This document shows, piece after piece, positions 1,833 to 28,414 of a DNA stretch of 34,854 nt. The stretch comes from an uncultured Neisseriales bacterium (GTDB lineage: Bacteria; Pseudomonadota; Gammaproteobacteria; Burkholderiales; Aquaspirillaceae), in NCBI GenBank assembly GCA_937871815.1, contig CALMOJ010000145.1:1-34854 (forward strand), in the 5' to 3' direction. Made by a program: the position numbers and the translations under genes. The notes beneath the pieces are model-generated. The model searched no databases. It saw nothing but the letters and a program-made list of their open reading frames with translations, and was not told the origin of the DNA. The first letter of the stretch is position 1, and the number at the start of each line of letters is the position of its first letter.

Positions 1833-1844
1833 AATCGGTTATCA

Positions 1845-1861
1845 AGCAACTGCTTGGTTGA
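1845..1861 (+). promoter_or_regulatory. 17-nt motif shared with the prpB promoter region (candidate operator)
   Basis: AGCAACTGCTTGGTTGA contains a small palindrome (CAAGCA-AC-TGCTTG when one flanking base is included, 1843-1856). The same 17-mer with a single difference lies at 27683-27699, between prpB and rpoE. The copy here begins 102 bases before the prpE start codon. Two near-identical motifs upstream of the two halves of one pathway suggest a shared transcription-factor site. The regulator is not identified. Confidence 0.5.
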
Positions 1862-1946: not shown

Positions 1947-3854
1947 ATGGCAGGTAATTACCTCGCATTCCATCAGCGTTCTATCGAACAACCTGAAGCC
2001 TTCTGGGCAGAGCAAGCCGAATATATCGACTGGCACAAGCCGTTTGAACAGGTGCTGCGCTTTGACAATCCCCCGTTCCGCGACTGGTTTGTGGGCGGCG
2101 AAACCAACCTGTGCCATAACGCGGTAGACCGCCATTTGGCCGAGCATGGCGACAAAAACGCCCTGATTTACATTTCCACCGAAACCAATACCGAAGTCAC
2201 CTACACCTTTGCAGAGCTCCACCGCGAGGTCAACCGCTTCGCTGCCGTGCTGCAAGCCCAAGGCGTAGGCAAAGGCGACCGCGTGCTGATTTACATGCCG
2301 ATGATTGCCGAAGCCATCTTCGCCATGTTGGCCACCGTGCGTTTGGGTGCGATTCACTCGGTCGTGTTTGGTGGCTTTGCCGCCCACAGCCTCGCCACCC
2401 GTATTGACGATGCCCAGCCCAAAGTGATGGTCACCGCCGATGCTGGGATGCGCGGCGGCAAAATCATCCCCTACAAACACTTGGTCGATGAAGCCCTCTC
2501 CTGCGCCGAACACCCCCCCGCCACCGTGCTGATTGTGAACCGCAACCTAGACCCCGATATGGTGCGGGTTGCTGGCCGTGATGTGGACTACGCCGAGCAA
2601 CGCGCCCAGCACCTTGATGCCAAAGTACCGTGCGAATGGGTCGAATCCAATCACCCGAGCTACATCCTCTATACCTCTGGCACCACCGGCAAGCCCAAGG
2701 GCGTGCAGCGTGATACCGGCGGCTACGCCGTTGCCCTCGCCGCCTCCATGAAGCACATCTACAGCGGCGTGCCCGGCGAAGCCTACTTCTCCACCTCCGA
2801 CATCGGCTGGGTGGTGGGGCACTCCTACATCGTCTATGGCCCGCTGATTGCCGGCATGGCAACCATTGTCTACGAAGGGCTACCGACCCGCCCTGACGCA
2901 GGCATCTGGTGGCAAATCGTCGAAAAATACAAAGTCAGCGTAATGTTTAGTGCGCCGACAGCCGTGCGCGTGCTGAAAAAGCAAGACCCCGCATGGATGA
3001 AGAAATACGACATTTCCTCCCTGCGCTACCTATTCTTGGCAGGCGAGCCGCTGGACGAACCGACCGCCAGCTGGATTTCCCGCGAACTCGGCGTGCCGAT
3101 TATCGACAACTACTGGCAAACCGAAACCGGCTGGCCGATGTTGTCTGCCATGCCAGGGATTGAAGACACCCCGGTTAAATTTGGCAGCCCGTCCTTCCCA
3201 ACCTACGGCTTTAACCTCAAGCTGCTGAACGAAAACACCGGCGAAGAAGTGGCGACCGGCGAAAAAGGCGTGCTGGCCGTTGTGCCGCCGCTGCCACCGG
3301 GCTGCTTGTCCACCATCTGGAAGCAAGACGAACGCTTTGTCAGCACCTACTTCACCGGCTTCAAGGGGCAGCAGGTTTATTCCTCGTTTGACTGGGGCGT
3401 AAAAGACGAAGACGGCTACTACTTTATCCTTGGGCGTACCGATGACGTGATTAACGTGGCCGGCCACCGCTTAGGCACGCGTGAAATCGAAGAAGCGGTC
3501 AACGTCCACGATGCCATCGCCGAATGCGCCGTGGTCGGGGTGGCCGATTCGCTGAAGGGTCAAGTGCCGATGGCGTTTGCCGTGGTCAAAGACCCCGCTA
3601 TTTTGTCTGCCTCGCCCGAAGCCAAAGAAAGACTGGCGCGTGAAGTGATTGCCATGGTGGGCAAAGAGCTGGGCGCGATTGCCAACCCTTCGCAAGTCCA
3701 TTTTGTGCTGCAACTGCCCAAAACCCGCTCAGGCAAGGTGCTGCGCCGCTCCATTCAAGCAATTGCCGAAGGCCGCGACCCTGGCGACCTGACCACACTG
3801 GACGACCCCTCTGGCCTGGAACAAGTCAAACAAGCTATCGCTGACCAAGCGTAA
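1947..3854 (+). CDS. prpE: Propionyl-CoA synthetase (propionate--CoA ligase)
   Basis: PrpE activates propionate with ATP and CoA to propionyl-CoA, the entry step of the 2-methylcitrate cycle. The 635-residue protein is a full-length ANL-superfamily acyl-CoA synthetase. It has the P-loop-like YTSGTTGKPKGV (about residues 241-252), the PrpE-type sequence after it (VQRDTGGYA), the adenylate-site NYWQTETGWP and the C-terminal SGKVLRRS, whose lysine (about 596) is the catalytic and acetylation site in the family. I chose ATG 1947 because GGAGAGAGA lies at the right distance upstream; the open frame extends 17 codons further to 1896 without a ribosome binding site. The partner genes prpB, prpC, acnD and prpF lie about 20 kb away on the other strand. 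Acetyl-CoA synthetase is the main alternative but fits less well. Confidence 0.92.
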   Translation: MAGNYLAFHQRSIEQPEAFWAEQAEYIDWHKPFEQVLRFDNPPFRDWFVGGETNLCHNAVDRHLAEHGDKNALIYISTETNTEVTYTFAELHREVNRFAAVLQAQGVGKGDRVLIYMPMIAEAIFAMLATVRLGAIHSVVFGGFAAHSLATRIDDAQPKVMVTADAGMRGGKIIPYKHLVDEALSCAEHPPATVLIVNRNLDPDMVRVAGRDVDYAEQRAQHLDAKVPCEWVESNHPSYILYTSGTTGKPKGVQRDTGGYAVALAASMKHIYSGVPGEAYFSTSDIGWVVGHSYIVYGPLIAGMATIVYEGLPTRPDAGIWWQIVEKYKVSVMFSAPTAVRVLKKQDPAWMKKYDISSLRYLFLAGEPLDEPTASWISRELGVPIIDNYWQTETGWPMLSAMPGIEDTPVKFGSPSFPTYGFNLKLLNENTGEEVATGEKGVLAVVPPLPPGCLSTIWKQDERFVSTYFTGFKGQQVYSSFDWGVKDEDGYYFILGRTDDVINVAGHRLGTREIEEAVNVHDAIAECAVVGVADSLKGQVPMAFAVVKDPAILSASPEAKERLAREVIAMVGKELGAIANPSQVHFVLQLPKTRSGKVLRRSIQAIAEGRDPGDLTTLDDPSGLEQVKQAIADQA

Positions 3855-4522: not shown

Positions 4523-7500
4523 TTAAATTTCGCGTTGTACGGCAGCCTGCAAAGCCCCCACACCATCCGGCTGGCCAAACAAATAGCCTTGGAACGCGCG
4601 GCAACCTAAATCAGCAAGGAAAGCGTACTGCTCTTCGGTCTCAACCCCTTCTGCAATCACCTCTAGCCCCAAGTTTTGTCCCAAGGCAATCAACGTTCGG
4701 GCAACCGCCGCACCATTCGGCGAGGTCAAAATATCGGCAACAAAGCTTTCACCAATTTTGAGCTGGTCTAAAGGTAGGGTATTGAGGTCAGGCAGGACGG
4801 CATACCCCGTCCCAAAGTCATCCAGTGAAAAGCGCACGCCCTCGGCACGGAGAGCGGTCATTTTGGCAATAATATCGGGCAAATCACCTTGCAGAACGCT
4901 TTCGGTGACTTCGAGCTTCAGCTTGCTTGGGTCGGCACCCGTGTCTCGCAGAATGGCTTGCACTGCGCTAACAAAGTTCGGCTGCCTAAACTCGCGGGAG
5001 CTGATATTGACCGCCAAAGTCAGGTGTACCATCTCGGTTTGCGCTGCCCAGAGCACAAGCTGCGCACACGCAGCCTCTAACACCCACTGGTCAATTTTGA
5101 GAATCAGCCCTGTTTCTTTGGCTTGGGGGATAAATTCGTTAGGGTAAATTAAGCCGCGCAGGGGGTGCTGCCAGCGCACCAAAACCTCGGCACCGGTCAT
5201 CTTACCTTGCTCATCCACTTGCGGCTGATAATGTAGCCGCAGTTGTCCCTCTTCAAGGGCTTGGCGCAGTTCTTCTTCTAGTCGCGTGTCTGCTTGCTCG
5301 GTGATTTGCATCGCCGCGTCAAAAAAGCACAGCCCATTGCGTCCTGCCGCCTTGGCTTGATACATCGCAAAGTCGGATTGCTTCAGCAACTGCTCAACCG
5401 TTTGATCCGCGCCGCTAAACAGGGTAATGCCGATACTGGGCGTGCTATGGTGCTCCATCCCCACCAAGCGATAGGGCTGGTTTAGATACGCGAGGATTTT
5501 TTCGCCGATTTTCTTGGCTTGCTTGGCCGCCACCTCTCCAGCGTCGCCGAGGTCGTCTAGCATCACCACAAATTCATCGCCCCCCAGTCGTGCCACCGTA
5601 TCGGTTTCGCGCACACTGGCCAGCAGCCGTTCGCCGACCTGACGCAAGAGTACATCGCCAACATCATGCCCCATGCTGTCGTTCAGGGCTTTGAAGTTAT
5701 CAAGGTCAATAAAAAACAACGCCCCTTGCCTTGGCGACCGGCTGCCCGAGGCAATCCGCCGCCGTAGACGGTCCAGCAGTAAGCGGCGGTTAGGCAGGCG
5801 GGTCAGGGGGTCGTAATAGGCCAGTTGCTTGATTTGCTCTTCGGCGGCCTTACGCTGGGTGACATCGGTGAGCGTGCCCACATAGTGGCTGACGGTTTCA
5901 TCGTCACCGGTCACCGCCGTCATGGTGAGCCATTCGCGGTAGAGCTCGCCATTTTTACGTCGATTCCACAATTCCCCTTGCCACGAGCCGGTATCGTGGA
6001 TATGCGTCCACATTTCATCGTAAAAAGAGGCGTTATTGCGGTCGCTGCCAGGCAGATACATGGTTTGCCCAACGGCTTCTTCGGTGGTATAGCCGGTGAT
6101 GGTGGTAAAAGCTTGATTGACCCGCAAAATAATATAGCGGGCATCGGTGACAAAAATGCCCTCTTGGGTTTCAAAAGCCACAGCGGCAATCCGCAGATTT
6201 TTTTCGGCTTGGCGGCGTTCAATCGCCAGCTCGGCCAGCTTGGCATAGCTTTCAATTTGGGCGATATCGGTGTCTGATGGGCGTGCAGGGATGGCGTGGT
6301 AGAGCGCGAAAACCCCCAGCACCCGTCCTTCGCTATTCAGAATCGGTTGCGACCAGCAGGCGCGTAGCCCCACCCGATAGGCCAAAGCTCGAAAGGGCTC
6401 CCAGTAGGGGTGGATTTCGATGTCTTCGACAATCATCCGCTTGCCACGATAGGCCGCCGTGCCGCACGACCCTTCGCCCTCGCCCACGGTTAGCCCATTG
6501 ATGGCTTGGTTGTAGAAGTCCGGCAGACTAGGCCCTGCACCGTGGTTGAGGTGGGTACCGGCATCGTCTAGCAAGGAAATAGCACAGCGCACGTCGGTAT
6601 GCTGGCTTTCGACTTCCAGCACCAAGGTTTCTAGGATTTGGCGCAGGGGCAGCCCTTGGCTGACTTGCTGCAACACTTGGTTGTGCAAGGCTAGTTCTTG
6701 GGTGCGGCTTTGGAGGATAGCCTCGGTGCGTTTTCGCTCCGAGATATCCCGCGACAGCACAATAAATCGCGCAGGAATATCATGGTCGGTGGCTTTGCGC
6801 GATACCGATAGCTCAAACCACATCGCGCCCTGCGGCAGCGAAATGGCGTATTGCTTGCCATTAGACTGCCCCGTGGCTTGGGCTTCTTGTAGCGCGGCCA
6901 AGATGATTTCGGCAGATTCGGCCGGCAGCACGTCTTGCACCCGTTTGCCCACCAGATCTGCCGTGGACAATAGCGGCAAGTCATTATGCGGGGCATGAGC
7001 ATCGTGGTAATAGCCCATCACGTCCAGCTCAAACAGCAAATCGGGGATGGCATCGAACGTGGCTTGCAGCTTGCTTTGCGTCGCCAAAATTTGGGCTTCG
7101 GCCTCTTTGCGTAGGGTAATGTCCTGCAAAATCCCTGCTGCTTGGGTCAAGTTTCCATTGGGGGCGTAGGATAGCCGTGCTTGGTTGTGCAGCCAACGGG
7201 TTTGCTGGTTGATGACAATGCGGTATTCCACGTCATAGCGCGTGCCATTAAGTGCCGATTTCCATGCGGCGCGGACGATTTGGTGGTCGTCGGGGTGGAC
7301 ATAGCTGTAAAACGTGGCACTGCTGACCGGCGAATCTTGCACCAACCCAAAAATCCGATAGATTTCTGCGGAGCACCGCACCAAGCCTGTGGGCACGTCA
7401 AGTAGCCAGCTCCCCATATGGGCAGCGGCTTGGGCGCGAGCCAGCTCGGTTTGGTAGGTGTGTGCCTCGGCGTTGCGGCGGGCGAGCTCAGCCTGCCGTC

Positions 7501-8359
7501 TGCGTTGTGCCAGCAGCAGATACACCAATGAAGCCAAGGCCGTGCTGCAGATAAGGCAGGCCATAATTCTCAGTAATAAACCCAGTGGGGCCCCCCAGCC
7601 TTGGGTGGGGGCGACGCTCAGCACCCATGTGCCGTTGAGGACGTCAAAGTGCCGCTCAACGGGCTCTAGTAAGGGCTGTACGGATGAGGTGGTAATCATC
7701 TGTCGGCCTTTGCTACCGGGAATTTGCCGCCACAAGGTGTAGTCGAACCCACGCTCAACCAGTTTGGGAAGTTGCACGGGGGTCAGCATGTCAGGAAAAC
7801 GCATCACCACCATGGAGAAACCCCAAAAGACAGGTACGCCTTTGCGGTCATCCATAAAAATAGGCAACCGCCCCACCACTCCCAAATGCCCCTGCATAAG
7901 GGTGAGCGGCCCAGCCAAGGTGAGCTTGCCGCTTTCCCGCGATAACATAGCCTCACGGTTTTGAATCGGGTCTTTGAAGAGGTCTAGCCCCAGCGCCTTA
8001 GTATTGTCCTGATGTGGAAACACCTGCTGCACTACGCCTTTAGGGGCTAGTGATAGCGAGGAAACACCAGGGTAAAAGGGCAGCATTTGCCGTGCGATAT
8101 CGTCAAATTCGGGGGGGCTACCGTGGGCTTGACGCACCAAAGCCGCCAAGGCGTAAGTGGCGGACAATGAGCGGTCAATGTGGGTTTGCAGCGTAGCTGC
8201 GTGATTGTTTACTAAGTCTGCAACCCGTGCACGCTCGGCCGCGAGGCGGTCTTGCTCTGCCTGCCAGATAAAGATGCCACCCAGCACGCTAGACAGCAAA
8301 AAAACGCAGATAATAAATAGGAACGAGGAAACCGAGCGGTGTGTATCAACAGGGGGCAT
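4523..8359 (-). CDS. Membrane CHASE-PAS-PAS-GAF-PAS-GGDEF-EAL cyclic-di-GMP enzyme
   Basis: This 1278-residue sensor should make or break cyclic di-GMP. In order: transmembrane helix (about 11-33), CHASE-like periplasmic sensor (about 75-250), second transmembrane helix (about 262-288), PAS (about 310-420), PAS (430-545), GAF (565-725), PAS (735-855), GGDEF (865-1020) and EAL (1035-1275). The cyclase signature GGDEF is intact (about 926-930), and an RxxD inhibitory site (RETD) lies five residues before it. The EAL motif reads EVL (E1058), a common functional variant. NISSREF, VTESV, DDFGTGY and AEGVETE are present, but the usual LKID reads LKIG, and the serines after DDFGTGY are replaced by AV. 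The start has only a weak upstream AAAGG. It follows fapA by 87 bases on the same strand. Net activity cannot be predicted. Confidence 0.9.
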   Translation of the reverse strand: MPPVDTHRSVSSFLFIICVFLLSSVLGGIFIWQAEQDRLAAERARVADLVNNHAATLQTHIDRSLSATYALAALVRQAHGSPPEFDDIARQMLPFYPGVSSLSLAPKGVVQQVFPHQDNTKALGLDLFKDPIQNREAMLSRESGKLTLAGPLTLMQGHLGVVGRLPIFMDDRKGVPVFWGFSMVVMRFPDMLTPVQLPKLVERGFDYTLWRQIPGSKGRQMITTSSVQPLLEPVERHFDVLNGTWVLSVAPTQGWGAPLGLLLRIMACLICSTALASLVYLLLAQRRRQAELARRNAEAHTYQTELARAQAAAHMGSWLLDVPTGLVRCSAEIYRIFGLVQDSPVSSATFYSYVHPDDHQIVRAAWKSALNGTRYDVEYRIVINQQTRWLHNQARLSYAPNGNLTQAAGILQDITLRKEAEAQILATQSKLQATFDAIPDLLFELDVMGYYHDAHAPHNDLPLLSTADLVGKRVQDVLPAESAEIILAALQEAQATGQSNGKQYAISLPQGAMWFELSVSRKATDHDIPARFIVLSRDISERKRTEAILQSRTQELALHNQVLQQVSQGLPLRQILETLVLEVESQHTDVRCAISLLDDAGTHLNHGAGPSLPDFYNQAINGLTVGEGEGSCGTAAYRGKRMIVEDIEIHPYWEPFRALAYRVGLRACWSQPILNSEGRVLGVFALYHAIPARPSDTDIAQIESYAKLAELAIERRQAEKNLRIAAVAFETQEGIFVTDARYIILRVNQAFTTITGYTTEEAVGQTMYLPGSDRNNASFYDEMWTHIHDTGSWQGELWNRRKNGELYREWLTMTAVTGDDETVSHYVGTLTDVTQRKAAEEQIKQLAYYDPLTRLPNRRLLLDRLRRRIASGSRSPRQGALFFIDLDNFKALNDSMGHDVGDVLLRQVGERLLASVRETDTVARLGGDEFVVMLDDLGDAGEVAAKQAKKIGEKILAYLNQPYRLVGMEHHSTPSIGITLFSGADQTVEQLLKQSDFAMYQAKAAGRNGLCFFDAAMQITEQADTRLEEELRQALEEGQLRLHYQPQVDEQGKMTGAEVLVRWQHPLRGLIYPNEFIPQAKETGLILKIDQWVLEAACAQLVLWAAQTEMVHLTLAVNISSREFRQPNFVSAVQAILRDTGADPSKLKLEVTESVLQGDLPDIIAKMTALRAEGVRFSLDDFGTGYAVLPDLNTLPLDQLKIGESFVADILTSPNGAAVARTLIALGQNLGLEVIAEGVETEEQYAFLADLGCRAFQGYLFGQPDGVGALQAAVQREI

Positions 8360-13351: not shown

Positions 13352-16300
13352 ATGACGGAAAAACGACAAGTACTGGCACGCCAACTGGGCGATGCCATCG
13401 ATAAAATAGAAGCAAGCGGCTGGAACCGTGTGCACGGCGCACAGCTTATCTATGTGGTAAAGCAATGCGCTGATGAGGCCAAGCGGCTGGCCCACCTTGA
13501 GGCCGTGGGGCGGGCGGATACGCTGGTCAAAATTTTAGGCGAATTTTTGCGGGATACCCCGCCTCAAGAGCGGCTAGAGCCCGTCCTGGCCGCCGTTCAC
13601 GAGCTGGCCGAGCTGTTTCTTGAAGCGCACCTCATTGAACCCCTCAACCAAGACATTCTCCCGCCTAGCCCCAGTAGCTGGACTTTTGCCGTGGTGGGTG
13701 AGCACTTTGCGGGTAGCGTAAAGCTGCTGCGGACACTACATCTGCTGGGATTTGCAACGAACCACGTAGCAAATTGGACGGAGACCCGACACCTCCCCGA
13801 CCCCATCCACACCGTCTTGCTGGCCAGTGCGACAGGTCTTGCTGCTCAACCGCCGCTGGCTTTGGCGGGAGCGACGCTGGTCGCCGTGGTGGATACCGAT
13901 GATTTTGAAGTTCAAGTCGCCGCAAGACGGGTCGGTGCAAGCCTGCTGCTGGACACGCCTTTGGATGTGCCTCGGCTGATTACCGCGCTAGCAGGATTAG
14001 CATGGATACCCCGCACCCCCTACCGTGTTTTGCTGGTAGAAACCGCTGAGGAACAGCCCTCAGCCGCCTTGGCGGCATTACAAGCTGCAGGTTTTTCGGT
14101 ACAGGTGGTCGAAACCCAAGCCGCCGCACGGGCATGCTTGGCGCACTTTTCTCCCGAGGTCTGCGTACTTGAGGCCGCACAGCTCGGTGGCCTCGGCATT
14201 GATATCGCCACCTCGCTGCGCCGAGATAAGCGTTTTGCGCGTCTACCAGTGGTTTATCTGTCCGCAACCGATACGATCGAGATGCAATTGGCCGCACGTC
14301 ATGCCGGTGGCGAAGCATTTTTGCTTAAGCCGGTTGATGCACGCTTACTGGTTGCAGCCACGATGGCGCAAGCCAAGCAATTTCGCTTGTTTGATGCGGC
14401 CTATAGCCAGCGGCGGCTAGCATGGAATCAGCTTAAAAGCTTGAGAAGTGCGCTGGATGCCCACGCTATTGTGTCTGTGACCACACCAGACGGCAGCATC
14501 ATTGATGTAAACGAAAAGTTTTGCCTGACCAGTGGCTATTGCCGAGAAGAACTGATTGGCCACAATCACCGTCTTATCAAGTCGGGTCGCCATCCGCAGT
14601 CGATGTTCGAAGAGATGTGGCAAAAGCTGTCTAGCGGACAAAGCTGGCATGGTGAAGTGCAAAACCGGCACAAAGATGGCAGTGCTTATTGGGTGCAAAG
14701 CTCCATTTTGCCTATTGTGGATGAATATGGTTTGCCCGAGCTTTATGTATCTATTCGCACCGACATTACTGAGCAAAAGCGAATACAAGAAGCTCAAGAA
14801 CGTCAAGCACGCTTGCTAGATGCGCTCAGCCGCGCACTACAGCATTTTATGCTGACACATAACCTCGCCTCGACCTCTGCTTTGCTACTTGATGCCATGC
14901 TATTGCTGACAGAGAGTGCTTATGGCTTTATTGCTGAAGTCCTTTACGAGCCAGATGGCACAGCCTACCTCAAAACACATGCCCTCTCTAATGTAGAAGG
15001 GGATGCCCACACCCGCCAGCTTCATGAAGACACCCAAAAAAAAGGCATGGCGTTTCGCAATCTCGACACACTGTTTGGTGCCGTATTACGGACAGGTGAG
15101 GTGGTCATTGCCAACGACCCTACCCATGATCCCCGCAGCGGTAAGCTGCCGAAGGGACATCCTCCCCTTAATGCCTTTATAGGTCTCCCCGTTCTTCATG
15201 CCAATGTAACAGTCGGTGTCGTGGCGTTAGCGAACCGTGCGGGGGGCTACGATGCCAGCACAGAGTCTTTTCTCTCTCCTCTTACAGCAACCTACGCCAC
15301 GATTTTGGAAGCCGCACGGGTACGACACCTTCAGCAGCAAGTGATTGATAGCCTGCTACGGGCAAAAGATGCCGCCGAGCAAGCCAATCGGCGCAAAACT
15401 GAGCGACTAGCCAACTGGGTCGGCCAGCTCCGCACTCCGCTGAATGCAATTCTTGGCCACGCCCAAATTTTGCAGATGAATCCACTGCTGGATGCCGATA
15501 TCGCTGAGCAAATCCAAGAGATACGTCATGGGGGCGAAGTCCTCAGCGACCAAATGAACGCGCTGGTCAAGCATATCGACACCGACGAATTTATTGCTAC
15601 CCCCACCATATTGCCCAAGTCCCTGACGGTTGCCGCCGGTCAAGAAGGGACGCGGCGGCGTATTTTGGTGGCCGAAGACAACCCCGCAAACCGTGCAGTA
15701 TTGCGGATGCAGCTAGATGTATTGGGCTTTGATGCCGATTTGGCAACTGATGGCACACAAGCCTTGGCGCAGTGGCAAGCCGGTGGGCATGACCTGATTT
15801 TGGCCGACCGGCACATGCCCAATATGGATGGATTGGCACTGACCCGCGCCATTAGAGCTGCCGAGCGGGACAGTGGGGGCTATGTCCCGATTATTGCTGT
15901 CAGTGCGTTAAACCACCCCGAAGACTTGGCCGCTTGCCGTGCAGCGGGCATGGATGACGCACTGCCCAAACCCATTGAGCTCGACGACTTACGCCGCCTG
16001 CTGGCGCGATGGTTGCCAAGGTCATCGCCAGTCACGCCCTTTACCGACGCGCCCCAGCCCTCTAGCAACAACCTTGGCGCGACGCTAGACACTAACTATC
16101 TTGCCCGCATTATTGGCCAAGTGCCGGTGGCGCAAACGCGTGAACTGGTGGACCTGTTTACCGTCACCGCTCACGCTGATTTGCAAACGTGCCAGCGGCT
16201 GTTGACGCACCGCGATGGCCATGGTTTATCGTTGATGATGCACAGGCTCAAATCCTCTGCCCGTATGGTCGGGGCGATGCGCTTTGCCCATTTGGCTGAG

Positions 16301-17638
16301 AGCCTAGAAAGCGCGGCGCAGAGCGGGCGGCTCAATACCGCCACCATGCTGCTGACCGACCTGAACTATGCCGTGCGTGACATTGAAGCGGTTATCCACC
16401 ATCTTACCCCTCCGCTGCAGCCTGCTTTGGTCGTTGCGTCGCACGTCTCTGAGCTCCCGAAACGGGTGTTGATGGTGGATGACGACCCCATAGCCCGCCG
16501 ACAAGGTAGTATGTTGTTAGCCGCGCTGGGTATTCAGGACGTGCTAGCAGTAGGCAGCGGCGAAGTTGCCTTGGCAGAGCTAAATGCCTCAGACAGCACA
16601 TTTGACTTGATTATTAGCGACCTCGATATGCCGAGCATGGATGGCATTGAGTTTTTAAGACAGCTGGCCAAGATGGGCTACCAAGGTGGGATTATTCTTG
16701 CCAGCGGGGTGGATGACCGGCTACTGCAAACCGCCGCCGAGCTGACCCGCGCAAAAGGACTGGCGTTGTACGGGTCGCTTAAAAAGCCCATGACGCAAGC
16801 CTCACTACTGGCCTTGCTTATCCAGCCTTGCCCGTCTCCCCGCATAGAAGAAGCGACGCTTAACACCATTACCCTCTACGACATCCAAGAAGGGATTCGA
16901 CTAGACGAATTCAGTGTTCACTTTCAGCCAAAAGTGGATGCCATTACGCTCAATGTGGTGGGTGCAGAAGCCTTGGCGCGGTGGAATCATAATGGCCATA
17001 TAATTCCACCTAGCGTATTTATCGACATTGCAGAGCGGCATGGCCTGATTGCCACGCTTTCTGAAGTGCTGATTACAAAAGCTTTAATTGGTGGGGCGCA
17101 GATGAGCGCGGCAGGCTTCTCGATAATGTTGGCGGTGAATATCTCGGCCAATTGGTTATCAGATATTCGCTTGCCCGAATTTATTTTGGCCAGTATTCAA
17201 TCCACCAATTTTGTCGCAGAAAATCTAATTTTAGAAATTACAGAAACTGGCATTATGGCTGATATTGCTACTTCGTTAGATGTGATGACGCGGCTAAGAT
17301 TAAAGGGCTTTAAGCTTTCTATTGATGATTTTGGCACGGGCTATTCGTCTATCGAACAATTACAGCGCATCCCATTTGGTGAGCTAAAACTAGATCGCAG
17401 CTTTGTGCAGGGTGCAGCCGAGAACACCGACAGACGTGCCATTTTGGCTTCGACCATTGATATGGCTCGCAAACTTAAGCTTTCTACCGTGGCAGAGGGG
17501 GTCGAAACCCAAGCGGATCTTGACTTAATCAGAGGGCTGGGGTGCGACCAAATACAGGGCTATTTTATTGCCAAACCCATGCCGCTAGAAGCTTTGCTGG
17601 TTTGGCTAAAAAAACATGATATTAGGAAAATTCTATAA
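13352..17638 (+). CDS. Giant scaffold protein: pseudo-receivers-PAS-GAF-degenerate HisKA-REC-Hpt-REC-EAL
   Basis: This 1428-residue soluble protein combines: a helical N-terminus (1-105); a receiver-like domain without an acceptor (about 110-215); a second receiver (222-345) with E274 at the phospho-site; PAS (365-480); GAF (495-655); a HisKA-like segment (677-740); an intact receiver (768-885, D819); an Hpt domain (910-1020, H964 in MHRLKSSA); another intact receiver (1037-1155, D1090); and an EAL phosphodiesterase domain (1184-1428). In the HisKA segment the usual SHELRTP reads VGQLRTP, so the phospho-histidine is replaced by G691, and no HATPase domain follows. The EAL domain keeps E1206 (EAL), NIS, ITETG, DDFGTGYSS, LKLD and AEGVET, so cyclic-di-GMP hydrolysis is expected. 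It looks like a phosphorelay-controlled phosphodiesterase that depends on another kinase. The start has a weak ribosome binding site. Confidence 0.88.
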   Translation: MTEKRQVLARQLGDAIDKIEASGWNRVHGAQLIYVVKQCADEAKRLAHLEAVGRADTLVKILGEFLRDTPPQERLEPVLAAVHELAELFLEAHLIEPLNQDILPPSPSSWTFAVVGEHFAGSVKLLRTLHLLGFATNHVANWTETRHLPDPIHTVLLASATGLAAQPPLALAGATLVAVVDTDDFEVQVAARRVGASLLLDTPLDVPRLITALAGLAWIPRTPYRVLLVETAEEQPSAALAALQAAGFSVQVVETQAAARACLAHFSPEVCVLEAAQLGGLGIDIATSLRRDKRFARLPVVYLSATDTIEMQLAARHAGGEAFLLKPVDARLLVAATMAQAKQFRLFDAAYSQRRLAWNQLKSLRSALDAHAIVSVTTPDGSIIDVNEKFCLTSGYCREELIGHNHRLIKSGRHPQSMFEEMWQKLSSGQSWHGEVQNRHKDGSAYWVQSSILPIVDEYGLPELYVSIRTDITEQKRIQEAQERQARLLDALSRALQHFMLTHNLASTSALLLDAMLLLTESAYGFIAEVLYEPDGTAYLKTHALSNVEGDAHTRQLHEDTQKKGMAFRNLDTLFGAVLRTGEVVIANDPTHDPRSGKLPKGHPPLNAFIGLPVLHANVTVGVVALANRAGGYDASTESFLSPLTATYATILEAARVRHLQQQVIDSLLRAKDAAEQANRRKTERLANWVGQLRTPLNAILGHAQILQMNPLLDADIAEQIQEIRHGGEVLSDQMNALVKHIDTDEFIATPTILPKSLTVAAGQEGTRRRILVAEDNPANRAVLRMQLDVLGFDADLATDGTQALAQWQAGGHDLILADRHMPNMDGLALTRAIRAAERDSGGYVPIIAVSALNHPEDLAACRAAGMDDALPKPIELDDLRRLLARWLPRSSPVTPFTDAPQPSSNNLGATLDTNYLARIIGQVPVAQTRELVDLFTVTAHADLQTCQRLLTHRDGHGLSLMMHRLKSSARMVGAMRFAHLAESLESAAQSGRLNTATMLLTDLNYAVRDIEAVIHHLTPPLQPALVVASHVSELPKRVLMVDDDPIARRQGSMLLAALGIQDVLAVGSGEVALAELNASDSTFDLIISDLDMPSMDGIEFLRQLAKMGYQGGIILASGVDDRLLQTAAELTRAKGLALYGSLKKPMTQASLLALLIQPCPSPRIEEATLNTITLYDIQEGIRLDEFSVHFQPKVDAITLNVVGAEALARWNHNGHIIPPSVFIDIAERHGLIATLSEVLITKALIGGAQMSAAGFSIMLAVNISANWLSDIRLPEFILASIQSTNFVAENLILEITETGIMADIATSLDVMTRLRLKGFKLSIDDFGTGYSSIEQLQRIPFGELKLDRSFVQGAAENTDRRAILASTIDMARKLKLSTVAEGVETQADLDLIRGLGCDQIQGYFIAKPMPLEALLVWLKKHDIRKIL

Positions 17639-21499: not shown

Positions 21500-22693
21500 T
21501 CAAAACGTATCGCCCGGCACCCGTACCCAGCCTTCCATCAGCACCCGCGCACTGCGGCTCATAATGGCTTTGGTCACGGTCCAATCACCCTCGGTTTGGG
21601 TGGCTTCTGCCCCAACACGCAAGGTGCCAGAGGGGTGGCCAAAGCGCACGGCGGTGCGTTCGCCGCCACCAGCGGCCAAGTTGACCAGCGTCCCTGGAAT
21701 GGCCGCAGCCGTGCCAATCGCCACCGCTGCGGTGCCCATCATGGCGTGGTGCAGTTTGCCCATCGACAAGGCGCGTACCGACAAGTCAATGTCACTGCCT
21801 GCCACCGCTTTGCCGCTGGACGAAACGTAATCCGCTGGTGGCGCGACAAAAGCAACTTTAGGGGTATGTTGGCGTTTGGCCGCTTCTGCTACGTCCTGAA
21901 TCAGCCCCATCCGCAACGCGCCATAGGCACGGATGGTTTCAAACATCGCCAGTGCCTTGGTATCGCCATTGATGGCATCTTGCAGCTCGGTGCCGGTGTA
22001 GCCAATGTCTGCGGCGTTCACAAACACGGTTGGAATCCCCGCGTTAATCATGGTGGCCTTGAACGTGCCCACGCCAGGGACGTCCAAATCATCGACCAGA
22101 TTGCCGGTGGGGAACATTGACCCGCCGCCCTCGCCATCGCCTTCGTCGGCAGGGTTCAAAAACTCAACCGCCACTTCAGCTGCAGGGAAGGTCACACCAT
22201 CCAGCTCAAAATCGCCGGTTTCTTGCACTTCACCGTTGGTGATAGGCACATGGGCAATGATGGTCTTGCTGATATTGGCCTGCCAGATACGGACGGTGCA
22301 ATGCCCGTTTTGCGGAATGCGGCTGGCTTCTACCAGACCCGCGCTAATGGCAAACGAGCCGACAGCGGCGGTCAAGTTGCCGCAATTGCCGCTCCAATCC
22401 ACAAACGCCTTGTCGATGGAAACTTGGCCGAACAGGTAGTCCACATCGTGCTCGGGCTGGCTGCTTTTGGACAGAATGGCGGTTTTGCTGGTGCTGGAAG
22501 TCGCGCCGCCCATGCCGTCAATTTGCTTGCCGTAGGGGTCGGGGCTGCCAATCACCCGCAACAACAAGGCATCTCGCGCCGCGCCAGGGACTTGGCAAGG
22601 GGCGGGCAAGTCTTGCAGGTTAAAAAACACACCTTTGCTGGTGCCGCCGCGCATATAGGTAGCAGGGACTTTAATTTGGGGAACATGAGCCAT
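21500..22693 (-). CDS. prpF: 2-methylaconitate cis-trans isomerase PrpF
   Basis: PrpF has a diaminopimelate-epimerase-like fold and isomerises the 2-methylaconitate made by AcnD so that an aconitase can hydrate it in the methylcitrate cycle. The protein has 397 residues from ATG 22693, which has AGGAAA at seven bases; an in-frame start at 22744 lies inside the intercistronic hairpin and is not credible. The family signature MRGGTSKGVFF is at the N-terminus. MGGATSSTSKTAIL, DWSGNCGNLTAAVG and the C-terminal GHPSGTLRVGAEA also match PrpF. It is the last gene of prpB-prpC-acnD-prpF, in the usual pairing with acnD. Confidence 0.94.
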   Translation of the reverse strand: MAHVPQIKVPATYMRGGTSKGVFFNLQDLPAPCQVPGAARDALLLRVIGSPDPYGKQIDGMGGATSSTSKTAILSKSSQPEHDVDYLFGQVSIDKAFVDWSGNCGNLTAAVGSFAISAGLVEASRIPQNGHCTVRIWQANISKTIIAHVPITNGEVQETGDFELDGVTFPAAEVAVEFLNPADEGDGEGGGSMFPTGNLVDDLDVPGVGTFKATMINAGIPTVFVNAADIGYTGTELQDAINGDTKALAMFETIRAYGALRMGLIQDVAEAAKRQHTPKVAFVAPPADYVSSSGKAVAGSDIDLSVRALSMGKLHHAMMGTAAVAIGTAAAIPGTLVNLAAGGGERTAVRFGHPSGTLRVGAEATQTEGDWTVTKAIMSRSARVLMEGWVRVPGDTF

Positions 22694-22717
22694 AGTGATT
22701 TTTCCTAGATAGCAGTA

Positions 22718-22742
22718 GGGCGGCACGTTGACCGTGCCGCCC
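22718..22742. other. Intercistronic hairpin between acnD and prpF
   Basis: GGGCGGCACG (22718-22727) and CGTGCCGCCC (22733-22742) form a perfect 10-bp stem with a 5-base loop. On the transcribed minus strand a T run precedes it rather than follows it, so it is probably an mRNA-stabilising or processing structure and not a terminator. Confidence 0.65.
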
Positions 22743-22782
22743 AAAAAACACGCAGGGTAAGTGCGCGTTCAACGTCAGACGA

Positions 22783-25401
22783 TTAAACCGCCTTGTTCGA
22801 TTCTAGGAAGTCTTGGGCAAAGCGTTGCAACACGCCACCCGCTTCGTAAATCGACACTTCTTCGGCGGTATCCAGACGGCAGGTCATCGGCACGTCAACG
22901 CGCTCCCCGTTTTTACGGAGGATGACCAAAGTCAGCGTGGCGCGGGGGGTGCGGTCGCCTTCTACGTCGTAGGTTTCAGTGCCATCCAGCCCCAAGGTCA
23001 GGCGGGTGGTGCCGGGTTTGAATTCCAGCGGCAACACGCCCATCCCAATCAAGTTGGTGCGGTGGATGCGCTCAAAGCCTTCTGCGGCAATGGCTTCTAC
23101 CCCTGCCAAACGCACGCCCTTGGCGGCCCAGTCCCGCGACGAACCCTGACCATAATCCGCACCAGCCACGATAATCAGCGGCTGTTTGCGGTTCATATAG
23201 GTTTCGATGGCTTCCCACATCCGCACCACGTTGCCTTCTGGCTCAACACGGGTCAGCGAACCCTTCTTCACTTGGCCATCGACCACGGCCATTTCGTTCA
23301 CCAGCTGCGGGTTGGCAAAGGTGGCGCGCATGGCGGTCAGGTGGTCGCCACGGTGGGTGGCGTAAGAGTTGAAGTCTTCTTCTGGCAAGCCCATCTTGGC
23401 CAGATATTCGCCAGCCGCGCTGTTCAGCATGATGGCGTTGGAAGGCGACAGGTGGTCGGTGGTGATGTTGTCTGGCAACACGGCCAGCGGACGCATCCCC
23501 TTCAGTGTGCGTGGATTCGCCGCCAACGCGCCCATGCCTTCGGTGTCCCAGTACGGCGGACGGCGAATGTAGGTGCTGGTTGGCCGCCAGTCGTACAGCG
23601 GGCTTTCGGCTTCTTCTACGGTGCCAAGGTCAAACATCGGCACATAGATTTGCTTGAACTGCTCGGGCTTGACGCTGGCTGCAACGATGGCATCAATTTC
23701 TTCGTCCGAAGGCCAGATGTCGGCGAGGCGAATTTCTTTGCCATCCACCACGCCCAGTACGTCTTTTTCGATGTCGAAGCGAATCGTCCCAGCAATGGCG
23801 TAGGCCACAACCAGCGGCGGCGAAGCCAAGAAGGCTTGCTTGGCATAGGGATGGATACGCCCGTCAAAGTTACGGTTACCGGACAGCACCGCAGTGGTGT
23901 AGAGGTCGCGGTCGATGATTTCTTTTTGAATCACAGGGTCGAGTGCGCCAGACATGCCGTTACAGGTGGTGCAGGCAAAGGCGACAATCCCGAAGCCGAG
24001 CTTTTCCAGCTCAGGCAACAGACCCGAATCTTCCAGATAGAGCTGGGCGACTTTAGACCCTGGGGCAAAAGACGACTTGACCCAAGGCTTACGCACCAAG
24101 CCCAATTGGTTGGCTTTGCGTGCCAGCAAGGCAGCGGCCACCACGTTACGGGGGTTGGAGGTGTTGGTGCAGCTGGTAATGGCGGCAATAATCACGGCCC
24201 CATCGGGCATCAGGCCTTGGGCTTCTTCGGCTTGGGCTTTGTCGAGGTCAACCGCAATGCCGCGTGCGGCGAGGTCGGAGGTCGGCAGGCGTTTGTGCGG
24301 GTTAGACGGGCCGGCCATGTTGCGCACCACGGTGGACAAGTCAAAGGTCAGTACGCGTTCGTATTCGGCGTTGACAAGGCTATCTGCCCACAGACCGGTG
24401 GCCTTGGCGTAGTTTTCGACCAAGGCGACTTGCTCTGGCTCACGGCCCGTTAGCTTCAGATAGGCGATGGTTTGTTCGTCGATGTAGAACATACCCGCTG
24501 TTGCGCCGAACTCTGGGGTCATGTTGGAGATAGTGGCACGGTCGCCAATAGACAGGCTGGCAGCACCATCGCCAAAGAATTCGACATACGCCCCAACCAC
24601 GCGCTCTTTCCGCAGGAATTCGGTCAGTGCCAACACGATGTCGGTGGCGGTAATGCCGGATTGACGCTTGCCGGTCAGCTTCACGCCAACGATGTCAGGC
24701 AGACGCATCATGGAGGCACGACCCAGCATGACGGTTTCGGCTTCTAGGCCACCCACGCCAATGGCAATCACGCCCAAAGCATCAACGTGTGGGGTGTGGC
24801 TATCGGTGCCGACGCAGGTATCTGGGAAGGCCACGCCGTCACGCACTTGAATCACGGGCGACATTTTTTCCAGATTGATTTGGTGCATGATGCCGTTGCC
24901 AGCAGGAATCACGTCCACGTTCTTAAACGCGGTTTTGGTCCACTCGATAAAGTGGAAGCGGTCTTCGTTGCGACGGTCTTCGATGGCGCGGTTTTTAGCG
25001 AAGGCATCGGGGTCAAAGCCACCGCATTCGACAGCCAAGGAGTGGTCCACAATCAGTTGGGTCGGCACGACAGGGTTGACCTGTGCGGGGTCGCCGCCTT
25101 GGTCGGCGATGGCATCGCGCAGACCGGCAAGGTCAACCAGCGCGGTTTGACCCAAGATGTCATGGCACACCACGCGAGCAGGGAACCATGGGAAGTCGAG
25201 GTCGCGCTTGCGTTCAATCAGCTGCTTGAGGGAGTCGGTCAGGGTGGCGGGGTCGCAGCGGCGCACCAAGTTTTCGGCCAGCACGCGGGAGGTGTAAGGC
25301 AGGGTGGCGTAGGCACCGGGCTGGATGGCATCGACAGCGGCTGGGGTATCAAAATAGTCCAGCGTGGTACCGGCGAGCGGTTTGCGGTTTGCAGTGTTCA
25401 T
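22783..25401 (-). CDS. acnD: Fe/S-dependent 2-methylcitrate dehydratase AcnD
   Basis: AcnD is the aconitase-like enzyme that, together with PrpF, replaces PrpD in the methylcitrate cycle; it dehydrates 2-methylcitrate to 2-methylaconitate. The 872-residue length fits the family. The three [4Fe-4S] cysteines are seen at C411 (ITSCTNTSNPRN), C477 and C480 (FACTTCNGMSG). Aconitase signatures GTDSHTPHVDALGVIAIGVGG and GADYGQGSSRDWAAKG are also present. The genome context, with prpF just downstream and prpC and prpB upstream, argues for AcnD over housekeeping AcnA. ATG 25401 has only a weak GGGA upstream. Confidence 0.94.
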   Translation of the reverse strand: MNTANRKPLAGTTLDYFDTPAAVDAIQPGAYATLPYTSRVLAENLVRRCDPATLTDSLKQLIERKRDLDFPWFPARVVCHDILGQTALVDLAGLRDAIADQGGDPAQVNPVVPTQLIVDHSLAVECGGFDPDAFAKNRAIEDRRNEDRFHFIEWTKTAFKNVDVIPAGNGIMHQINLEKMSPVIQVRDGVAFPDTCVGTDSHTPHVDALGVIAIGVGGLEAETVMLGRASMMRLPDIVGVKLTGKRQSGITATDIVLALTEFLRKERVVGAYVEFFGDGAASLSIGDRATISNMTPEFGATAGMFYIDEQTIAYLKLTGREPEQVALVENYAKATGLWADSLVNAEYERVLTFDLSTVVRNMAGPSNPHKRLPTSDLAARGIAVDLDKAQAEEAQGLMPDGAVIIAAITSCTNTSNPRNVVAAALLARKANQLGLVRKPWVKSSFAPGSKVAQLYLEDSGLLPELEKLGFGIVAFACTTCNGMSGALDPVIQKEIIDRDLYTTAVLSGNRNFDGRIHPYAKQAFLASPPLVVAYAIAGTIRFDIEKDVLGVVDGKEIRLADIWPSDEEIDAIVAASVKPEQFKQIYVPMFDLGTVEEAESPLYDWRPTSTYIRRPPYWDTEGMGALAANPRTLKGMRPLAVLPDNITTDHLSPSNAIMLNSAAGEYLAKMGLPEEDFNSYATHRGDHLTAMRATFANPQLVNEMAVVDGQVKKGSLTRVEPEGNVVRMWEAIETYMNRKQPLIIVAGADYGQGSSRDWAAKGVRLAGVEAIAAEGFERIHRTNLIGMGVLPLEFKPGTTRLTLGLDGTETYDVEGDRTPRATLTLVILRKNGERVDVPMTCRLDTAEEVSIYEAGGVLQRFAQDFLESNKAV

Positions 25402-25490: not shown

Positions 25491-26645
25491 TTAGCGTTGT
25501 GCGATTGGCACGAAGGTCAAATCTTCTGGACCCATGTAATTGGCGGAAGGACGAATAATCTTGCCGTCTTCACGTTGTTCGATAACGTGTGCTGCCCAGC
25601 CGGTGGTGCGAGCAATCACAAACAGCGGGGTGAACATGGCAGTTGGTACGCCCATCATGTGGTAGGACACGGCGCTGAACCAGTCGAGGTTCGGGAACAT
25701 TTTCTTGATGTCCCACATCACGGATTCGAGACGCTCGGCGATGTCATACATCTTGGTGTCGCCGGCTTCAACCGACAGGTTTTTCGCCACTTCTTTGATG
25801 ACCTTGTTACGGGGGTCAGAGATGGTGTAAACGGGGTGGCCAAAGCCAATAACCACTTCTTTGCGGTCAACGCGTGCCTTGATGTCGGCTTCAGCAGCAT
25901 CGGGGGTGTCGTAGCGTTTTTGCACTTCGAACGCGACTTCGTTTGCACCGCCGTGCTTAGGACCACGCAACGCACCAATCGCGCCGGTGATGGCGGAGTA
26001 CATATCCGACCCTGTGCCAGCAATCACGCGGCCGGTAAAGGTCGAGGCGTTGAACTCGTGCTCTGCGTACAGAATCAGCGAGGTGTGCATGGCGTTAACC
26101 CACGATTCAGAAGGTGTTTCACCGTGCAGCAGGTGCAAGAAGTGGCCGCCAACGGAGTCATCATCGGTTTCAACTTCGATGCGCTTGCCGTTGGTGCTGA
26201 AGTGGTACCAGTACAGCAAAGCCGAACCCAAAGAAGCAATCAGGCGGTCGGCGATGTCACGCGCACCTGGGCTGTTGTGGTCGTCTTTTTCTGGCAGGGC
26301 GCAACCCAGTACCGAGACGGCTGTCCGCATCACGTCCATCGGATGGCTGGCGGCTGGCAGGGCTTCCAGTGCCACTTTCAGGCTAGCTGGCAAGCCGCGC
26401 AGGGCTTTGAGTTTTTTCTTGTAGCCAACCAGTTCGGCTTTGTTTGGCAGCTTGCCATGCACCAACAGGTAGGCGATTTCTTCGAATTCGCAGGTGGTGG
26501 CCACATCCAAGATGTCGTAACCGCGATAGTGCAGGTCATTACCGGTACGGCCCACGGTGCAGAGGGCGGTATTGCCAGCGGTCACGCCAGACAGGGCAAC
26601 AGATTTTTTGGCTTTAGGGGCTTGGGGCTGAACAGCTTCGGACAT
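25491..26645 (-). CDS. prpC: 2-methylcitrate synthase
   Basis: PrpC condenses propionyl-CoA with oxaloacetate to 2-methylcitrate. The 384-residue protein is a type II-like citrate synthase family member of PrpC length. Active-site regions are [14 protein letters not shown], with the family histidine, and [15 protein letters not shown], with the second histidine. An N-terminal lysine- and proline-rich extension (about residues 5-20) precedes the fold. AGGAGA lies nine bases before ATG 26645. The position between prpB and acnD distinguishes it from gltA. Confidence 0.94.
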
Positions 26646-26730: not shown

Positions 26731-27612
26731 TTACTTGTTTTTGCCTTGAGCAAACAGGGAGTCCAGTTTTTGCTCATAAGCGTGGTAGTTGATCGTTTCG
26801 TACAAATCCATACGGGTTTGCATGGTATCGACCACGTTCTTTTGTGTGCCTTCTTTGCGCAGGGTTTGGTAGACGTTCAGCGCGGCCTTGCTCATGGCAC
26901 GGAAGGCAGACAAGGGATACAGCACCAAAGAGACATCGGCTTCGGCCAGCTCTTGGGTAGTGAACAGCGGGGTGGAGCCAAATTCGGTGATATTGGCCAG
27001 CACAGGCACTTTGACCGCTTCGGCAAACTGCTTATACATGGCGAGGTCGGTAATGGCTTCTGGGAAAATCATGTCGGCACCGGCTTCAACGCAGGCGCAC
27101 GCACGGTCGATGGCGGATTGCAGGCCTTCGACAGCCAAGGCATCGGTACGCGCCATAATCACAAAGCTGTCATCGCGGCGGGCATCTACGGCGGCTTTGA
27201 TGCGGTCAACCATTTCTTCTTGGGTGACGATGGCCTTGTTAGGACGATGGCCGCAGCGTTTTTGCTGCACTTGGTCTTCGATGTGCACAGCGGCCACACC
27301 TGCGCGTTCCAAGCCACGAATGGCGCGAGCAATGTTAAACGCCCCGCCCCAGCCGGTGTCGATGTCCACCAGCAAAGGCAGGTCGGTCACGTCGGTGATA
27401 CGGCGTGCATCAATCAGCACGTCTTCTAGTGTGGTGATGCCGAGGTCAGGAATACCGCAAGAGCACGCAGCAACGCCGCCGCCAGAAAGATACAGGGCTT
27501 TAAAGCCAGACTGCTCGGCCAGCAAGGCGGCGTTGGCGGTGACTGCACCCACCACTTGCAAAGGTTTTTCGGCTGCTACGGCTGCTCTGAAACGTTGTCC
27601 GGCTGTCATCAT
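26731..27612 (-). CDS. prpB: 2-methylisocitrate lyase
   Basis: PrpB cleaves 2-methylisocitrate to pyruvate and succinate, the last step of the cycle. The 293-residue protein belongs to the isocitrate lyase/PEP mutase superfamily. KRCGH (118-122, catalytic C120) is followed by RPNK, as in PrpB. The metal-binding aspartates in [11 protein letters not shown] and the EDQ motif (VHIEDQVQQ) are in place. GGAGA lies about nine bases before ATG 27612. It is the first gene of prpB-prpC-acnD-prpF and is divergent from rpoE. Confidence 0.95.
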
Positions 27613-27665: not shown

Positions 27666-27680
27666 AATCAAAGATTGATT
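27666..27680. promoter_or_regulatory. Inverted repeat upstream of prpB (candidate operator)
   Basis: AATCAA (27666-27671) and TTGATT (27675-27680) form a perfect 6-bp inverted repeat around AGA. It lies right next to the proposed prpB -10 box, on the downstream side, which is a typical place for a repressor site. No equivalent was seen upstream of prpE. Confidence 0.35.
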
Positions 27681-27706
27681 CTAGCAAGTGCTTGGTTGAG
27701 CCGCAA
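27678..27706 (-). promoter_or_regulatory. Candidate sigma-70 promoter for the prpBC-acnD-prpF operon
   Basis: Read on the minus strand, TTGCGG (27706-27701) and TAGAAT (27683-27678) are separated by exactly 17 bases. The -10 matches consensus at five of six positions and the -35 at three of six. The spacer is largely occupied by the 17-nt motif shared with prpE, so a protein bound there would cover the promoter. Confidence 0.4.
27683..27699 (+). promoter_or_regulatory. 17-nt motif shared with the prpE leader (candidate operator)
   Basis: AGCAAGTGCTTGGTTGA differs at a single position from 1845-1861 upstream of prpE. It starts 71 bases from the prpB start codon and lies inside the proposed prpB promoter spacer. 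It is also 116 bases before rpoE, so a role for that gene is not excluded. Confidence 0.5.
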
Positions 27707-27814: not shown

Positions 27815-28414
27815 ATGAGCGAGAGGGAAATCGACCAAGAATGGGTGCGGCGTGTCCAGCATGGCGACAAGCACGCTTTCGATTTTTTGGTCAAAAAATA
27901 CCAACGCCGTCTAGCACGTCTGCTGTCTCGCTTTGTGCGGGACCCCGCCGAAGTGGAAGATGTCACCCAAGAAGCCTTTGTTAAAGCCTACCGCGCCTTG
28001 CCTAGCTTTAGGGGGGAGAGCGCGTTTTACACTTGGCTATACCGTATTGGCATCAATACAGCCAAAAACTACTTGGTCGCAGCCAAGCAACGCCCGATTC
28101 TTTCTGCGGACTTTGAAGACGAGGACGGTGACAAAACCAGTGCGGGCGAGCAAATCCCCGACCTCAACACCCCCGAAACCGAATATATGAACCGGCAAAT
28201 TGTAGAAACCGTGAACCAAGCGGTGGCTACCTTGCCTGAAGACTTAAGAACCGCAATTACCCTGCGCGAAATGGAGGGTTTGAGCTACGAGGATATCGCG
28301 ATTGCGATGGATTGCCCCATTGGCACGGTGCGTTCGCGCATTTTCCGTGCACGGGATGCCATCTCTGCCCAGCTCAAGCCTTTGTTAACCCCTGCCCAGA
28401 ACAAACGATGGTGA
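27815..28414 (+). CDS. rpoE: Extracytoplasmic-stress sigma factor RpoE (AlgU-type)
   Basis: The 199-residue ECF sigma factor directs RNA polymerase to envelope-stress genes. Region 2 is seen in FVRDPAEVEDVTQEAFVKAY and FRGESAFYTWLYRIGINTAKN; region 4 in LPEDLRTAITLREMEGLSYEDIA and CPIGTVRSRIFRARDAI, the -35-binding helix-turn-helix. Length and sequence fit RpoE/AlgU of beta- and gammaproteobacteria. The rseA, rseB, rseC and mucD genes follow directly. The ribosome binding site is weak (AGAGG at a long spacing), but no better start exists. Confidence 0.95.
   Translation: MSEREIDQEWVRRVQHGDKHAFDFLVKKYQRRLARLLSRFVRDPAEVEDVTQEAFVKAYRALPSFRGESAFYTWLYRIGINTAKNYLVAAKQRPILSADFEDEDGDKTSAGEQIPDLNTPETEYMNRQIVETVNQAVATLPEDLRTAITLREMEGLSYEDIAIAMDCPIGTVRSRIFRARDAISAQLKPLLTPAQNKRW

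Follow-up and report, generated by a model that had tools for sequence, protein, structure and literature searches.

Related repressors and propionate regulators

AtuR and RdmA are TetR repressors of the Pseudomonas atu and dmg clusters (PMC9973270). In Pseudomonas aeruginosa, AtuR binds AGCAAGCGCTTGG and CCAAGCGCTTGCT, of which AGCAAGCGCTTGG is a confirmed binding site (PMC9973270). KstR2, also a TetR repressor, acts on genes of mycobacterial cholesterol catabolism and has the 14-bp palindrome AnCAAGnnCTTGnT as its motif; three Mycobacterium tuberculosis sites of this motif are marked positive, and the Mycobacterium smegmatis MSMEG_6009/6010 site, TACCAACCAAGCACTTGCTAGGTC, is a predicted one that is marked not determined (PMC3068626). 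The known propionate regulators, i.e. the sigma-54 PrpR, the GntR-type PrpR and the ScfR-type PrpR/RamB, have a role equal to that of the TetR candidate described below, the control of prp genes, but differ from it in protein family.

The prp genes of the window

The window, i.e. the whole stretch of 34,854 nucleotides that was analysed, carries two prp loci. The gene prpE, for propionate-CoA ligase, is on the plus strand (1947..3854; NF007815 and TIGR02316, above cut-off). On the minus strand are prpB, methylisocitrate lyase (26731..27612, TIGR02317), prpC, 2-methylcitrate synthase (25491..26645, NF009006), acnD, Fe/S-dependent 2-methylisocitrate dehydratase (22783..25401, TIGR02333) and prpF, 2-methylaconitate isomerase (21500..22744, TIGR02334). 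These four presumably form one operon, headed by prpB and ending with prpF. Between the two prp loci are large GGDEF/EAL and hybrid histidine kinase genes (4523-8359, minus strand; 13352-17638 and 17751-19676, plus strand), which make up a c-di-GMP and two-component signalling cluster.

What regulates propionate use here? The first-pass annotation of this DNA had remarked that the window has no prpR-like gene, which is right: neither a sigma-54-dependent nor a GntR-type PrpR is seen within the window, and the best candidate regulator, a TetR gene, lies on a different contig. It had also pointed to a short motif upstream of both prpE and prpB as the mark of one regulator for both loci, a proposal that is now well supported by conservation of the site.

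Two copies of one site

The prpE-side 17-mer, AGCAACTGCTTGGTTGA, lies at 1845-1861 and the prpB-side 17-mer, AGCAAGTGCTTGGTTGA, at 27683-27699; they agree at 16 of 17 positions, and re-reading the window sequence confirmed both the positions and the identity first reported. The motif had been described as containing an AGCA-NN-TGCT palindrome. It is palindromic, but that unit is too short; the true one is CAAGCA-NN-TGCTTG, which is perfect in the prpE operator (CAAGCA-AC-TGCTTG, 1843..1856, without assigned strand), 90 bp before the prpE ATG. The prpB operator (27680..27695, also without assigned strand) reads CCAAGCACTTGCTAGA on the minus strand and includes AGCAAGTGCTTGG at 27683-27695. As the site is palindromic, the difference in orientation between the copies that had been noted has no meaning.

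Could two short intergenic words be alike by coincidence? The match had been held to be unlikely by chance, a judgement for which likeness is insufficient. The window contains 41 pairs of 17-mers that agree at 16 or more of 17 positions, representing about 24 independent places. Within its intergenic DNA the prp pair is the sole one, and at least one such pair was found in 6 of 100 Markov-resampled intergenic sets (a chance of ~6%). Because matches of this quality are common in the window and appear in the resampled sets, the sequence likeness of the two copies, taken alone, is suggestive of a shared site, not decisive; it is cross-species conservation that decides. The site is conserved at both loci in two families while its flanks are not (see below), and this already refutes a chance likeness, the probability of which is negligible.

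Nor do copies swarm inside unrelated genes, as a genome-wide scan for the motif, proposed in the earlier annotation, has shown. Pattern searches of the whole 2.34 Mb assembly found no match to the 17-mer with fewer than two mismatches other than the window pair. Those other palindrome matches in this genome (two mismatches or fewer) that were examined lie inside predicted open frames.

The site falls in a described class. Compared with the 13-bp AtuR inverted repeat AGCAAGCGCTTGG, the prpB copy (AGCAAGTGCTTGG) matches at 12 of 13 positions and the prpE copy, more weakly, at 11 of 13. The KstR2 palindrome AnCAAGnnCTTGnT is present exactly in the prpB copy (ACCAAGCACTTGCT) and with one mismatch in the prpE copy (ACCAAGCAGTTGCT). 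A stretch of the M. smegmatis site TACCAACCAAGCACTTGCTAGGTC, namely CAACCAAGCACTTGCTAG, recurs at prpB in the window with 18 of 18 letters identical. The binding evidence for KstR2 comes from mycobacterial sites only (PMC3068626).

Conservation in relatives

Footprinting in relatives had been suggested as a check, and it shows the site to be kept where the flanks are not. All 11 genomes tested for prpE have the operator 50-122 bp upstream of that gene, and all 14 tested for prpB have it 49-86 bp upstream; in both cases the genomes come from the window's family and the Chromobacteriaceae. The site-bearing set consists of the window's family (G001-G005), Vogesella indigofera (G032) and named Chromobacteriaceae. 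In anchored alignments, mean information is ~1.7 bits per column inside the site vs. 0.35-0.46 in the flanks. Within the 250 bp preceding prpB, the best mismatch to AGCAAGCGCTTGG has a mean of 1.0 in this clade vs. 4.3 at 94 other prpB loci; upstream of prpE the clade mean is 2.0, compared with 4.45 elsewhere. The prpB gene of Crenobacter oryzisoli is preceded by the exact AtuR 13-mer, AGCAAGCGCTTGG. The operator was not found upstream of prpE or prpB in the remaining relatives examined, among them, for prpB, Neisseria wadsworthii, Pseudomonas and Undibacterium. From its conservation, the motif is predicted to be a genuine operator common to prpE and prpB.

The prpB promoter and its neighbour rpoE

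The prpB operator sits inside a putative promoter. A putative -10 box, TAGAAT, preceded by TGC (an extended -10), is at 27678..27683 on the minus strand and overlaps the right arm of the operator; a putative -35 box, TTGCGG, assigned by eye and alignment, is at 27701..27706 on the same strand. The boxes are 17 bp apart, and the operator fills the spacer. These assignments were made by eye and conservation because a strict sigma-70 scan listed none: no promoter passed its thresholds, the prpB -10 included. Of the 14 prpB promoters in the anchored alignment, 13 have TAGAAT and that of Chromobacterium has TTGAAT. This is the classical placement of an operator for a repressor. Because the right arm of its palindrome doubles as the -10 box, the prpB copy has less symmetry than the one at prpE.

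Might the prpB block then be kept mainly as a core promoter, with its extended -10 TGCTAGAAT, and resemble the prpE site by coincidence? The constancy of TAGAAT/TTGAAT in the 14 promoters is what one would expect in that case. But CCAAGC, upstream of the -10, is just as well conserved and, being spacer, plays no part in a core promoter; at prpE the full palindrome, free of an internal -10 box, is present in 11 of 11 genomes; and the site sequence also precedes a tetR gene in two relatives (G002 and G005). A core-promoter origin of the conservation is thus quite improbable, and an operator remains the favoured interpretation of the prpB block.

The divergent neighbour of prpB is the sigma-factor gene rpoE (27815..28414, plus strand), and the earlier annotation had linked the motif to it as well. 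That the site serves rpoE and not prpB would fit its location in the prpB-rpoE intergenic region and the adjacency of rpoE in G004, Vogesella and other Chromobacteriaceae. Gene order, however, leads to rejection of rpoE as the target. Three genomes of the window's family (G001, G002 and G003) retain the prpB site and lack rpoE within the 20 kb around it, so the link is unnecessary, and the distance from site to prpB start stays at 49-86 bp in all genomes. The operator is therefore probably not directed at rpoE, and a site serving that gene in place of prpB is highly improbable.

A candidate TetR regulator

Which protein reads the site? When the relatives were scanned for the palindrome, G002 and G005 proved to have the 17-mer TCAACCAAGCAATTGCT directly ahead of a TetR start codon. 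Read in reverse complement, it is the 17-mer first reported, the difference being confined to the variable centre base. The G002 protein (P0002) has PF00440 (TetR_N) and TetR_C_24 domains. In the window genome a single match to it reaches E<=1e-10; this match is 73% identical, lies on another contig (G000:C177:1861-2406), directly behind a heptosyltransferase-like gene, and adjoins no prp gene.

The distribution of this gene parallels that of the site. Orthologues with at least 68% identity are present in 7 of 7 site-bearing genomes in one search and in 8 of 8 site-bearing Chromobacteriaceae in a second, while in the remaining genomes of both searches identity is below 60% throughout. No tested genome that was shown to be free of the site carries an orthologue at the 68% level, and among 399 genomes of the order such orthologues occur in two families only (f1 and f28). 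Site and orthologue belong to the same clade, so that their joint presence may amount to a single evolutionary event and not to many independent ones. More distant homologues provide independent support. The upstream regions of 30 such genes (37-58% identity) have a mean best mismatch to the AtuR-like palindrome of 2.77, compared with 4.62 for shuffled controls, 4.58 for upstreams of XRE genes and 4.5 for other TetRs; AtuR-like palindromes are thus much more frequent before these genes than in shuffled DNA or before control genes. Upstream of the tetR gene in the window genome itself there is no operator, and autoregulation, a prediction from site position, is clear in G002 and G005 only.

Among solved structures, the best homologue of the candidate is PfiT (E 7.8e-50), whose helix-turn-helix is closely similar. 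PA2885 is AtuR. The PfiT paper describes PfiT as a close homologue of PA2885 and does not use the name AtuR; the resemblance of the candidate to AtuR as a TetR homologue with a closely similar helix-turn-helix is accordingly judged through PfiT and not from AtuR itself. Other points of likeness are an operator close to the -10 and targets in acyl-CoA-type catabolism. There are also clear differences. The target here is the methylcitrate cycle, whereas AtuR and RdmA act in terpene or DSF degradation; the candidate gene is unlinked to its targets, whereas the AtuR gene is divergent from the atu cluster; and AtuR promoters have two inverted repeats ~40 bp apart, whereas the window promoters have one site each. 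Because it differs in its targets, in where its gene lies and in how many operator repeats there are, the candidate is AtuR-like, but it is not AtuR. Protein similarity of P0002 to the KstR2 structure 4w97 is significant (E 7.7e-16) but low overall, and KstR2 differs in phylum and in pathway, its regulon comprising steroid catabolism where the targets here are prpE and prpBC-acnD-prpF.

The operators could also be real and be read by another regulator, such as a different TetR or a small RsaL-like XRE protein. The class of site is common to several TetRs (KstR2, AtuR), and some relatives have an XRE gene close to a prp gene (to prpE in G002 and G003, to prpF in G004). Yet the window genome has a single AtuR-like TetR at E<=1e-10, and the XRE gene is widespread, being present in 35 of 60 relatives, most of them without the site; its upstreams lack the motif, as the mean of 4.58 mismatches given above indicates. 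The XRE protein (P0001) was rejected on these grounds. ScfR-type regulators (PF09856) were likewise discarded, as they occur in 1 of 60 genomes and in none that bears the site. Another reader is unlikely on this evidence, although less so than the alternatives considered for the prpB block, and the C177 TetR is retained as the candidate. The RsaL-like XRE regulator (MKLFEKIPNPREIRRKLGLNQQEFW...) is small and strongly conserved, at L098:4979-5320 (minus strand), L099:13140-13454 (plus strand) and L101:16828-17163 (minus strand).

Proposed regulation and its significance

The two motifs are best explained as operators of one AtuR/KstR2-type TetR repressor, the C177 protein, that coordinates prpE with prpBC-acnD-prpF and is probably released by an acyl-CoA; we put the probability of this at roughly three in four. 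Binding of both sites by this protein is inferred from the comparisons above, and repression and an acyl-CoA inducer by analogy with its TetR family. A TetR dimer would occupy CAAGCA-NN-TGCTTG before prpE, and another would cover the spacer and -10 of the prpBC-acnD-prpF promoter, where bound repressor would block RNA polymerase. Propionyl-CoA (most likely) or another short acyl-CoA, as a pathway intermediate, might then release the protein, whereupon propionate activation and the methylcitrate cycle would be switched on together.

Operators of this type are already known, but none of the literature searched appears to report one that serves the methylcitrate cycle; an earlier computational prediction is possible. 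We lean slightly towards an undescribed regulon, in which an AtuR/KstR2-like TetR was recruited, in the ancestor of the Chromobacteriaceae and the window's family, to serve as dedicated repressor for the methylcitrate cycle. If so, the operator word is still letter-identical to a site of the mycobacterial cholesterol regulon, and the tetR gene has been relocated behind a cell-envelope gene and has for the most part lost the operator that preceded it. This would be a clear instance of a single TetR operator word being kept across phyla while the pathway under its control changed. The proposal names a candidate regulator, a class of inducer and operators for propionate use in a bacterial group in which no PrpR was seen beside the prp genes. 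In practice it would be of moderate use, as a source of promoter and sensor parts for propionyl-CoA and by giving an uncharacterised TetR a function.

Further occurrences of the motif

Tandem operators are found upstream of prpB in G002 (L097, positions 11150 and 11179, 29 bp apart) and in G004 (L101, positions 9726 and 9745, 19 bp apart). In f33 genomes (L319 and L321), AGCAAGCGATTGCTAGAAT is upstream of tetR homologues and represents a fusion of the operator with a prpB-type TTGCTAGAAT box. In G003 (C6:108915, L247), TCAAGCGGTTGCTTGGTTGA is located in the gap ahead of an open reading frame that resembles an RnfB/ferredoxin-type protein and adjoins a pyruvate:ferredoxin-oxidoreductase-like gene; this frame is a possible extra member of the regulon. 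In G004, GCAAGAATTTGCTTGG is repeated on contigs C13, C18, C37, C51, C55 and C92, mostly close to contig ends, and palindrome counts for that genome are inflated by it. These repeats are probably part of a repeated mobile element.
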